A DNA stretch of 34,267 bases, from the NCBI GenBank assembly GCA_028693285.1, contig JAQUVQ010000031.1:1-34267 (forward strand), written 5' to 3'. Within the stretch, counting starts at the first letter, position 1. Each line of letters opens with the position of its first letter. The notes below the pieces were generated by a model. That model saw only the letters and a program-made list of their open reading frames with translations, made no database searches and was not told where the DNA came from. Source of the stretch: Smithellaceae bacterium. GTDB taxonomy: Bacteria > Desulfobacterota > Syntrophia > Syntrophales > Smithellaceae. The position numbers and the translations under genes are program-made. This document shows positions 20,667 to 27,083 of this stretch, piece by piece.

Positions 20667-20682
20667 TGCCAGAGTCGTGCCA
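20667..20682 (-). promoter_or_regulatory. Sigma-54 (-24/-12) promoter of the glutamate synthase run
   Basis: Read on the minus strand, this is TGGCAC-GACTC-TGGCA: a perfect -24 box, GG-N10-GC spacing kept, and one mismatch from TTGCA in the -12 box. The predicted start of transcription is near 20656, leaving a leader of about 27 bases with a ribosome site before ATG 20629. Paired ACA-N3-TTGT motifs lie 89 and 118 bases further upstream. Confidence 0.85.
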
Positions 20683-20770: not shown

Positions 20771-20809
20771 ACAAATTTGTGCTTTTGCGAAATGGCGTGA
20801 CATTATTGT
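20771..20809. promoter_or_regulatory. Candidate paired activator sites upstream of the glt promoter
   Basis: ACAAATTTGT (20771-20780, a perfect palindrome) and ACATTATTGT (20800-20809) have centres 29 bases apart, close to three helical turns. They lie about 120 and 149 bases upstream of the predicted start, the usual range for sigma-54 enhancer sites. The same motif with the same spacing occurs upstream of the 23094-23109 promoter. The rest of the 221-base gap (20630-20850) holds a CCGCGG inverted repeat at about 20735-20752 that may end the regulator transcript. Confidence 0.55.
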
Positions 20810-20850: not shown

Positions 20851-22389
20851 CTATGGCTTCAAGGCGGCGTCTCTTGTGTTTTTGCGGAATTTTCCGGGAT
20901 CGATGCCCATTTTCGATATTTTATACTGGATCACGCGCTTCGTGGTTCCCAGGATTTTGGCCGCCTTGGTCTGGTTGCCGCCCGTTTCCCTGAGCGCGTC
21001 GATAATCAGCGCTCTCTCCTGCGCCTCGACGACGGACGACAGCTTGCTGTGGTCCCTGCGCTCCGGCGATCTTTCCCCGGCATGGAGGGAAGGCGGCAGA
21101 TGCAGGCAGTCCACGGTGTCCGTTTTGGTCAGGAGCACCGCCCGCTCGATGCAGTTTTCCAGTTCGCGGACATTGCCCGGCCACTTGTGGGACAGAAACG
21201 CTTCAATGGCGGCCGTGGAGATCTTTTTGACGTTCTTCCCCATTTCCTTGCTGTACTTGAGCAGAAAATGATCGGCCAGCAGGATGACGTCGCTGCCGCG
21301 TTCCCGAAGCGGCGGCAGATAAACGGGGAAAACATTGAGGCGGTAAAACAGGTCCGCCCGGAAACGGTCGGCGAGAATATCCTGCTCCAGGATGCGGTTC
21401 GTGGCGGCGATGATCCTCACGTTGACGTTCACCACCCTCGACGAGCCCAGCGGCTGAAATCGTTTTTCCTGCAGAACGCGCAGAAGCTTTACCTGCGCGG
21501 CGGCGGACAGTTCGCCCACTTCGTCCAGAAAGATCGTGCCGCCATTGGCTTCTTCGAAGCGTCCGCGGCGCGTCTGCAGCGCGCCGGTGAACGCGCCTTT
21601 CTCATGTCCGAACAGTTCGCTTTCAATGAGCGTGTCGGGAATCGCCGCGCAGTTGACCTGCACCAGCGGCCCGTTTTTGCGCGGAGAGTTGTTGTGAATC
21701 GCCCGGGCAATCAACTCTTTGCCCGTGCCTGTTTCGCCGGTGATCAGCACTGTCGTGTTGGAATCGGAAACCTGCGCCACCAGGCCGAAGACTTCCTGGA
21801 TGGCCTTGGAATGGCCGATAATATCCGTGGAAGGCGCGTGCTGCTGTCCGACAATTTTGCGCAAGCGGCGGTTTTCCTCTTCCAGGGCGCGGATGTGAAC
21901 GGCCTTGGCCATCAGTTCGGCCACCGAGCCCATCATGGCCAGTTCCTTTTCCAAGTCCTCGACCTGCTTGGCCACCTTGTCGGCGGATAAAACCCCGACC
22001 ACGCGCTCGTCATAGATAATGGGAACGCATAAAAAGGAAAGCTCGGCGCGGTTCAAATGACGTCTTGCTCCCGTGCGGTCCAGAAAGTGGGTTTCCTGCC
22101 CCAGATTCGCCACGGCCATCGGGCGGCCGGTCTCCGCTACCTGGCCGGTGATTCCTTCTCCCGGTTTGTACGTCACTTCCATGCCGTCAATATTGACGTC
22201 ATGCGCGATGTCGAGCCACGCTTCCTTTTCCTCGTGATCCAGAAGGGAGATCATGCCGCGCTGCATTCCGAGGCGCAAACTCATTTCATGGAGGATTTTT
22301 TCCAGTTGATCTCTCAAATCCATCGGCTGCGCCAGGATTTTTGATATGGCGTGCAGGGCCGCTAATTCTTCATAACTGTGGATGCTCAC
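20851..22389 (-). CDS. Sigma-54-dependent activator, GAF-AAA+-Fis (NifA-like architecture)
   Basis: Enhancer-binding protein of 512 residues. It has an N-terminal GAF sensor (about residues 15-165, ending [20 protein letters not shown]) and a coiled linker ([15 protein letters not shown]). The AAA+ domain has Walker A GETGTGKE, the sigma-54 contact loop GAFTGA, Walker [13 protein letters not shown] and the arginine-finger region [15 protein letters not shown]. It ends with a Fis-type helix-turn-helix ([20 protein letters not shown]). There is no phospho-receiver domain, so it is built like NifA rather than NtrC, yet no nif genes are in view. It starts at GTG 22389, preceded by GGGGGAG. It lies directly upstream of the glt promoter and beside PII genes, and is the obvious candidate activator of the three sigma-54 promoters. 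Confidence 0.93.
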
Positions 22390-22580: not shown

Positions 22581-22922
22581 TTATCCGATGGCCAGCCGGC
22601 CGGTTTCTCCCGTGCGGATTCGAACACATTCCTCCAGGGGAACGATGAAAATTTTACCGTCGCCGATGCTGCCGGTGCGCGCTCCCCGAATGACGGCTTC
22701 CAGCGTGGGCTTGACGTAGTCGTCGTTCACGGCAATTTCAAAGCGCACCCGGTCGAGGAGGTCTCCGTTGGTAATGACTCCGTCGCGCGTGTCGGTTTTC
22801 CCGACCTGCGCGCCGCAGCCGACTACGGTGGAAACGGTAATTTTGCCCACGTTTACGTCGCGCAACGCCTGTTTGACGTCTTTGAGCTTGTCGGATTGCA
22901 CGATGGCGATGATCAGTTTCAT
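22581..22922 (-). CDS. PII signal protein without the uridylylation tyrosine
   Basis: A 113-residue PII family protein, which senses ATP/ADP and 2-oxoglutarate as a trimer and controls partners through its T-loop. The fold markers are MKLIIAIVQSDKLKDVKQAL at the start, and TGSIGDGKIF (B-loop) and RIRTGE near the end. In the T-loop (GCGAQVGKTDTRDGVITNGD) the residue aligned with Tyr51 of E. coli GlnB is Thr, so it cannot be uridylylated there. I choose ATG 22922, nine bases after AAAGG, over ATG 22928 or the longer frame from 22979, which would run into the tRNA. It is the second gene behind the 23094-23109 promoter, after tRNA-Gln. Confidence 0.92.
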   Translation of the reverse strand: MKLIIAIVQSDKLKDVKQALRDVNVGKITVSTVVGCGAQVGKTDTRDGVITNGDLLDRVRFEIAVNDDYVKPTLEAVIRGARTGSIGDGKIFIVPLEECVRIRTGETGRLAIG

Positions 22923-22950
22923 CAGCATTGGCCTTTCAAAATGGAGCCGA

Positions 22951-23024
22951 TGGCTGAGGGGCAAGGACTCGAACCTCAATTTTCAGGGCCAGAACCTGGC
23001 GTCCTGCCGTTAGACGACCCCTCA
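22951..23024 (-). tRNA. tRNA-Gln (anticodon CTG)
   Basis: Minus-strand cloverleaf of 74 bases including an encoded CCA. The acceptor is TGAGGGG (complement of 23018-23024) paired with CCCCTCA (complement of 22955-22961), followed by G and CCA. The D arm contains GTCTAACGGCAGGAC. The anticodon loop is TTCTGGC with anticodon CTG (complement of 22990-22992), reading CAG. The T arm contains GGTTCGAGTCC. One C-A pair at the base of the anticodon stem is imperfect. The gene lies 29 bases upstream of the PII gene and about 60 bases downstream of the start predicted for the sigma-54 promoter. I see no convincing sigma-70 promoter between that promoter and the tRNA. Confidence 0.92.
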
Positions 23025-23093
23025 GTGAAAAAACGAAACCAGCGTAAGCTGATAAGCGCTTCCTTTCCCGACGGATAACACCAATGAGCCGAG

Positions 23094-23109
23094 AGCAATG
23101 GCCGTGCCA
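23094..23109 (-). promoter_or_regulatory. Sigma-54 promoter upstream of tRNA-Gln and PII gene
   Basis: On the minus strand this reads TGGCAC-GGCCA-TTGCT, matching both consensus boxes with exact GG-N10-GC spacing. Transcription would start near 23083, about 60 bases before the tRNA-Gln. Two ACA-N3-TTGT motifs lie 68 and 97 bases upstream. Confidence 0.85.
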
Positions 23110-23176: not shown

Positions 23177-23215
23177 ACACGTTTGTCCGTTTTGAACACA
23201 GACAGACATAATTGT
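23177..23215. promoter_or_regulatory. Candidate paired activator sites between divergent PII genes
   Basis: ACACGTTTGT (23177-23186) and ACATAATTGT (23206-23215) have centres 29 bases apart, exactly as in the pair at 20771-20809. They are about 98 and 127 bases from the predicted start of the minus-strand tRNA-Gln transcript, and 36 to 74 bases before the plus-strand PII gene at 23251, so they could affect both directions. Confidence 0.5.
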
Positions 23216-23250: not shown

Positions 23251-23634
23251 ATGAATCAGTTGAAAAAAATCGAAGCGATCATTCGCGAAGATAAAGTAAA
23301 CGATGTTATCGACGCCCTCAAAGAAATTGGAATTGTGGGCATGAACACGTTTGAAGTGCGGGGACATGGCCGGCAGGGCGGCGTTCAACTGGTCGGACGC
23401 GCCGGAACCTATCAGGTCAATATGCTTCCAAAAATACAAATCAACATCGTTTTAAACACGCGCAATCTGGACGCCGCGCTGGAGGCGATCCTCTGCTCGG
23501 CTTACACGGGCGAGACGGGCGACGGCATTATTTTTGTGACACCTGTCGAAGATGTCATTCGGGTTCGGACACGCGAGCGTGGTCCGGGCGCCATGATGTA
23601 TCCCGGGGACATTGATGAACGCAGAAGTAAATAA
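23251..23634 (+). CDS. glnB: PII signal protein GlnB-like, with the T-loop tyrosine
   Basis: A second PII paralogue of 127 residues. It begins MNQLKKIEAIIREDKVNDVI and has the T-loop GRQGGVQLVGRAGTYQVN, in which the Tyr aligns with Tyr51, the residue uridylylated by GlnD. The B-loop is TGETGDGIIF. It is about 15 residues longer than usual because of a polar C-terminal tail (PGAMMYPGDIDERRSK). It is the only PII here that keeps the modifiable tyrosine and the only one on the plus strand. AGGAAA lies upstream of ATG 23251. Its stop codon directly abuts that of the convergent amidotransferase gene. The promoter is not obvious. Confidence 0.92.
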   Translation: MNQLKKIEAIIREDKVNDVIDALKEIGIVGMNTFEVRGHGRQGGVQLVGRAGTYQVNMLPKIQINIVLNTRNLDAALEAILCSAYTGETGDGIIFVTPVEDVIRVRTRERGPGAMMYPGDIDERRSK

Positions 23635-24327: not shown

Positions 24328-24425
24328 CAGATGGTCTCCTTGATTTTACCTGCATTGACGTTGCGTAAGGCCTGTATGACGTCTTTGAGCTTGTCGGACT
24401 GTGCTATGGCGATGACCAGTTTCAT
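24327..24425 (-). pseudogene. PII gene remnant: 32-codon N-terminal fragment
   Basis: Translates as MKLVIAIAQSDKLKDVIQAL, then RNVNAGKIKETI and a stop. It matches the start of the PII protein at 22581-22922. Over the first 28 codons 69 of 84 bases agree with that gene. Homology then stops before the T-loop, and a GGAG ribosome site plus the ATG of the amidotransferase follow at once. A good ribosome site (GGGAGAG) precedes it, and an alternative ATG lies at 24428. It is either a deletion remnant of a fourth PII gene or a small coupled leader peptide. Confidence 0.85.
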
Positions 24426-24436
24426 CATGGCTCTCC

Positions 24437-26987: not shown

Positions 26988-27003
26988 AGCAAGGATGGTG
27001 CCA
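26988..27003 (-). promoter_or_regulatory. Sigma-54 promoter of the amt-glnK operon
   Basis: Minus strand TGGCAC-CATCC-TTGCT, a full consensus match with GG-N10-GC spacing. Transcription would start near 26977, leaving a leader of about 30 bases containing AGGAGG before ATG 26945. It lies in the 331-base divergent gap 26946-27276. That gap otherwise holds one ACA-N3-TTGT motif and a weak plus-strand promoter candidate. Confidence 0.9.
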
Positions 27004-27073: not shown

Positions 27074-27083
27074 ACAATATTGT
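27074..27083. promoter_or_regulatory. Candidate activator site upstream of amt
   Basis: ACAATATTGT, a perfect ten-base palindrome, lies 71 bases upstream of the amt -24 box, about 101 bases from the predicted start. A degenerate partner (ATCAAAATGT, 27104-27113) sits 30 bases further. It is the same motif as at 20771, 20800, 23177, 23206 and 22456. Confidence 0.45.

Follow-up and report, generated by a model that had tools for sequence, protein, structure and literature searches.

The stretch of DNA analysed here (the window, 34,267 nucleotides) is an entire 34 kb contig from a Smithellaceae bacterium whose genome comprises 2.68 Mb and is 99% complete. Its single tRNA gene, as called by ARAGORN, is a tRNA-Gln(CUG), which is preceded by a leader, a -24/-12 promoter and a palindrome, and is followed on the same strand by a PII gene (PIIa) and by the gene of a NifA-like activator; glutamate synthase (GOGAT) genes and an amtB-PIIc pair have -24/-12 sites of their own (Table 1). 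The PII gene that had been predicted behind the tRNA is confirmed by its Pfam match; it follows after a gap of only 28 nt, in which no terminator was found. As regards the PII proteins themselves, PIIa and PIIb (23251-23634) are atypical and lack the T-loop YRG tyrosine, which PIIc keeps.

Table 1. Positions of the features at and around the tRNA-Gln locus
Feature	Positions	Strand	Basis and remarks
-24/-12 site (1 mismatch) before glutamate synthase genes	20667..20682	-	Palindrome at 20800-20809
NifA-like activator, candidate palindrome binder	20851..22389	-	GAF, sigma-54 AAA+ and Fis-type HTH domains; palindrome 22456 upstream
PII gene (PIIa), presumably on the tRNA transcript	22581..22922	-	Pfam P-II; 28 nt downstream of tRNA; same order in L153, L154
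Auxiliary tRNA-Gln(CUG), Gln2 type (G37, A3-U70), CCA encoded	22951..23024	-	ARAGORN and Rfam RF00005
59-nt leader; 23053-23038, shortly before the tRNA, form a weak stem with T run	23025..23083	-	Fold; terminator-like at chance level
-24/-12 promoter TGGCACGGCCATTGCT; transcription predicted to start at about 23083	23094..23109	-	0 mismatches; conserved in relatives
Enhancer-like palindrome ACAATTATGT (ACAATNNTGT), 106 nt upstream of -24	23206..23215	-	One of 4 window copies
PIIa remnant (about 33 codons) from a second copy, flanked by the porin and amidotransferase genes	24329..24428	-	23/28 identical to PIIa
-24/-12 site of amtB-PIIc	26988..27003	-	Palindrome at 27074-27083

The identity of the tRNA, given as tRNA-Gln(CTG) in the original prediction, holds: besides the ARAGORN call, the Rfam RF00005 score (48.8 bits) exceeds the gathering threshold, and cloverleaf, CUG anticodon and CCA end are all present. 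Of the 45 tRNA matches of the genome it scores lowest, and it contains a C27-A43 mismatch. An ordinary tRNA-Gln(CUG) gene (Gln1), with a TTGACA/TATATA-like promoter upstream, lies at C55:35630-35703, which settles the question of whether the genome has another such gene: the window tRNA is auxiliary and not the only CUG supply. There is also a tRNA-Gln(UUG) gene at C42, and among the 40 anticodons read in this genome Met and Gln-CUG alone are served by two or more different genes. Gln2 and Gln1 are identical at 53 of 74 positions; U1-A72 and G73 are common to both, with A37 and G3-C70 in Gln1 at the positions where Gln2 has G37 and A3-U70. In 22 Gln2 sequences the cloverleaf is kept, with 98.5% of cells paired and four pairs in which both partners have changed. 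A similar G37-type gene, whether or not it is the sole CUG gene there, has sigma-70-like promoters upstream in other classes of the phylum, so that Gln2 has the look of a true isotype of glutamine tRNA, although its charging with glutamine is inferred.

The -24/-12 promoter and its upstream palindrome

What is expected of a sigma-54 promoter, namely GG at -24, GC at -12, a 10-nt spacing and a near-consensus sequence, is all found in TGGCACGGCCATTGCT, which matches TGGCACG-N4-TTGCW, the consensus used for counting mismatches, at every position and lies 69 nt upstream of the start of the tRNA. The full-consensus promoter claimed originally is therefore real as a sequence, and it recurs at homologous tRNAs. 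An exact site alone is weak evidence, since TGGCAC-N5-TTGCW occurs five times in the 2.68 Mb genome, as against three for a reversed-pattern control; two of the five sites are inside the window, upstream of the tRNA and of amtB. Exact sites also occur at G000:C49:1525, before a porin-like gene, at G000:C54:334, before the gene that precedes an ATP synthase beta-like gene, and, probably by chance, at G000:C3:8826-8841 (L233 2827-2842), on the same strand as gatC-gatA-gatB. Control of gatCAB by sigma-54 was considered and dropped, because this site falls within the gene ahead of gatC and because exact sites appear at about the chance rate.

DNA searches for Gln2 in 51 genomes of the family and 155 of the order yielded 28 distinct Gln2 loci from seven families. 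A direct -24/-12 site (within 200 nt upstream, with GG and GC required and a match to no fewer than 9 of the 11 consensus bases) precedes 12 of the 28, against 0.45 expected in dinucleotide shuffles, and the sites are perfect at six, against 0.000 expected. By the same test, no site was found at 12 ordinary tRNA-Gln(CUG) genes or at 42 other tRNAs of the genome under study. Moreover, the upstream contexts in which the site recurs fall into about nine unrelated kinds: alignment over much of the length is possible for only three pairs among the 12 regions, and those of the window, L132 and L134 are alike only in the 19-20 nt of the promoter. At two loci with a direct site, L134 and L174, the gene that follows is convergent, and the promoter there therefore serves the tRNA itself. 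Eleven further Gln2 loci are found in operons headed by -24/-12 sites, mostly of the order amtB-PII-tRNA, in which the tRNA ends the operon or lies within it; one of these cases (L161) is weak, with a terminator-like repeat between the operon-head site and the tRNA. At L173, L175, L176, L188 and L189 neither a direct site of 9/11 nor a clear sigma-54 operon head was detected. With respect to leader structure, three loci of family f19 (L180, L188, L189) show a strong GC-rich hairpin with a T run about 10 nt 5' of the tRNA and more inverted repeats upstream of it, possibly an attenuator-like leader.

The absence of a convincing sigma-70 promoter, also part of the original prediction, stands only in a limited sense. 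No sigma-70-like pair scoring 9/12 was found on the tRNA strand between 22500 and 23300, but this negative is weak, because many housekeeping tRNAs of the genome likewise fail a similar test and are not separated by sigma-70 scoring within 90 nt. A weak sigma-70 promoter for the window tRNA cannot be excluded.

In the window, ACAATNNTGT occurs only four times, at 20800, 22456, 23206 and 27074, that is, upstream of GOGAT, the NifA-like gene, the tRNA and amtB, respectively; the tRNA promoter has a further, imperfect copy, ACAAACGTGT, whose start lies 77 nt upstream of -24. Nine of the 12 direct promoters of Gln2 have the palindrome upstream, 75-79 or 105-107 nt away from the -24 element, two spacings that differ by about three helical turns; at the 16 other Gln2 loci it is absent within 450 nt. 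Three loci with good -24/-12 sites (L132, L142, L143) have no palindrome even with one mismatch allowed. Since the palindrome was found by reading Gln2 promoters, its frequency among them is partly built in; a more independent test is the count across whole genomes of the module (palindrome plus -24/-12 site, gap 65-95). This module was matched 40 times in the 51 genomes and never by the reversed control, and 32 of the 33 matches read precede amtB, amtB2, PII or tRNA-Gln. The module gap of the window tRNA (97) falls outside the range searched. The tRNA thus has the same promoter and palindrome module as the amtB and PII genes, as would be required of a member of a nitrogen regulon, and ACAATNNTGT, common to the tRNA, amtB and GOGAT promoters, has the place of an upstream activator site, no protein-binding data being available. 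The classical NifA site is TGT-N10-ACA; we take it that ACAATNNTGT matches neither this nor the NtrC site.

Gln2 among the nitrogen genes of related genomes

Twenty of the 28 Gln2 loci adjoin amtB, PII, amidotransferase, NifA-like or GOGAT genes, as against none of 12 ordinary CUG genes (hypergeometric 2e-5, a value that is only indicative, related sequences not being independent). The tRNA stands before PIIa (window, L153, L154), before the NifA-like gene (L157, L158), before the amidotransferase gene (L161-L164), after amtB2-PIIb (L156, L166, L177-L181) or after another PII gene (L159, L160, L165). The conservation beside PII genes that was to be looked for in relatives has consequently been met in part: the tRNA is kept in the nitrogen cluster at those 20 loci, but not always next to PII. 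In 8 of 20 genomes of the same genus, some of them incomplete assemblies, no Gln2 match was obtained, which indicates that the tRNA is dispensable.

The tRNA, its predicted promoter, the putative activator palindrome and their joint conservation are legible in the DNA. The about nine contexts, the phased palindrome and the two promoters that serve only a tRNA lend comparative support to the original idea of a tRNA transcribed from a sigma-54 promoter together with a PII gene, in the absence of expression data. We consider it probable (about 0.8) that the auxiliary tRNA-Gln(CUG) belongs to the sigma-54 nitrogen-assimilation regulon.

Alternative explanations

Among the other explanations, the one that survives best, unlikely as it is, makes the tRNA a regulatory element, whose charging or amount reports glutamine status to the nitrogen system or whose chief task is to control the gene behind it. 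Its persistence among nitrogen genes at changing positions would fit, as would the yeast tRNA-Gln(CUG) mutants that trigger a nitrogen-starvation response (PMC3664417). Nevertheless, Rfam searches of the window and of the tRNA flanks in relatives returned the tRNA only, with no T-box or other element; the tRNA precedes PII genes at some loci and follows them at others; and the similar isotype elsewhere in the phylum resembles an ordinary CUG tRNA.

It is a good deal harder to accept that the promoter is that of the PII gene and that the tRNA is a passenger which landed in its leader. PII genes are classic sigma-54 targets, PIIa follows at a short distance, and in two relatives (L286, L287) the palindrome and -24/-12 site directly precede a PIIa homologue. 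However, in other relatives the tRNA keeps its -24/-12 site before a NifA-like, an amidotransferase or a convergent gene. The history of the locus also points the other way. In the L040/L158 lineage an intact PIIa lies between the porin and amidotransferase (GATase) genes, and the tRNA, with its own promoter, precedes the NifA-like gene; the 33-codon remnant in the window occupies that relative's PIIa place, which suggests a copying of PIIa to the site behind the tRNA promoter, with PIIa as the newcomer and not the tRNA.

No greater weight can be given to the view that Gln2 is a redundant tRNA without benefit, decaying towards a pseudogene. The low score and the C27-A43 mismatch are in its favour, and so are decayed copies in four relatives: in G010 and G011 the anticodon loop is altered, and in G033 and G036 the 5' end has been deleted along with the promoter. 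At L149 and L148 (G010 and G011, respectively) the loop reads TTCTTGT (CUU) instead of TTCTGGC. Against it stand the compensatory changes and the 98.5% pairing across seven families; furthermore, none of the four decayed copies examined has its own -24/-12 site, whereas the copies with a site are intact.

There is little ground, too, for regarding the tRNA not as extra supply but as a nitrogen-starvation device, a poor substrate of GlnRS that is charged with Glu and, through its amidation state or through partial decoding of CAG as Glu, links glutamine status with the proteome or with PII signalling. G37 and A3-U70 are the reason for supposing poor GlnRS recognition, and Glu charging is conceivable because the genome encodes two GluRS and GatCAB, besides GlnRS. 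A sensing or recoding role of Gln2 is not excluded. A second GatB-like protein is encoded at G000:C4 (L234 4997-6499), between GlnRS and AspRS-like genes.

Finally, an ordinary sigma-70 tRNA gene with a coincidental -24/-12 site and coincidental nitrogen neighbours can scarcely be maintained, for although exact sites are about as frequent as the reversed control and TATAAT-like hexamers lie upstream of a few Gln2 copies (L132, L135), the recurrence in independent contexts, the phased palindrome and the control count of zero for the module speak against chance.

Proposed mechanism and significance

Under the sigma-54 regulon reading, a shortage of nitrogen or glutamine would bring into action an enhancer-binding protein, whose identity is inferred and which would most likely be the adjacent NifA-like activator. 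Bound to ACAATNNTGT about 106 bp upstream, it would open the -24/-12 promoter; the two proteins needed, RpoN (PF04552, 1.2e-63) and an AAA+ activator, in the form of the NifA-like protein, are encoded in the genome. Transcription, also inferred, would give a single transcript of tRNA and PIIa, from which RNase P and 3' processing would free the tRNA. Charged, it is assumed, by GlnRS, the extra tRNA could sustain CAG decoding while ammonium-scavenging proteins are made at low glutamine. Induction by nitrogen stress, the effect on translation and the benefit itself are likewise inferences. CAG is the main Gln codon, with 244 occurrences against 69 of CAA in 21 window genes. No codon or Gln enrichment was found in the cluster genes relative to other genes, which gives no sign of a special need in translation, and the benefit may be general.

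Transcription of tRNA genes is normally under growth-rate control via the housekeeping sigma factor, and surveys of sigma-54 regulons usually consider protein genes. No precedent for a sigma-54-driven tRNA was found in the literature, as far as open-access papers go. Four surveys assign no sigma-54 promoter to tRNA-Gln (PMC2725144, PMC6615313, PMC8743547, PMC12316311), and in that of E. coli there are sites in spacers with a tRNA as divergent neighbour (nac/asnV). With glnA, glnK-amtB and the glnB-glnA of Geobacter sulfurreducens (PMC2725144) the window locus shares the -24/-12 promoter, an activator site about 75-107 nt upstream and the PII, amtB or GOGAT genes; it differs in that the first product is a tRNA, and tRNA goes unmentioned in PMC2725144. 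By analogy, the closest known ideas are the trn operon of Anabaena PCC 7120 and the yeast SUP70. The former also adds conditionally expressed tRNA genes to the housekeeping set, but it consists of 26 genes on a megaplasmid, is repressed by TrcR and is induced by translational stress (PMC10272220), whereas here there is one tRNA, an activated promoter and a predicted nitrogen signal. SUP70 encodes a CAG-decoding tRNA-Gln(CUG) tied to nitrogen status (PMC3664417, citing Murray 1998); the link of this single-copy eukaryotic gene comes from tRNA mutants and not from the tRNA promoter. A known sigma-54 operon with non-coding RNAs, whose predicted signal is tRNA fragments, is comparable as well, but it has Y-RNA-like RNAs and no tRNA gene, and responds to RNA damage.

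For surveys of sigma-54 regulons, the upstream regions of tRNA genes would be worth scanning too. If true, the proposed control would tie nitrogen signalling directly to the machinery that decodes glutamine codons, and would recur in seven families of this group of anaerobic bacteria.
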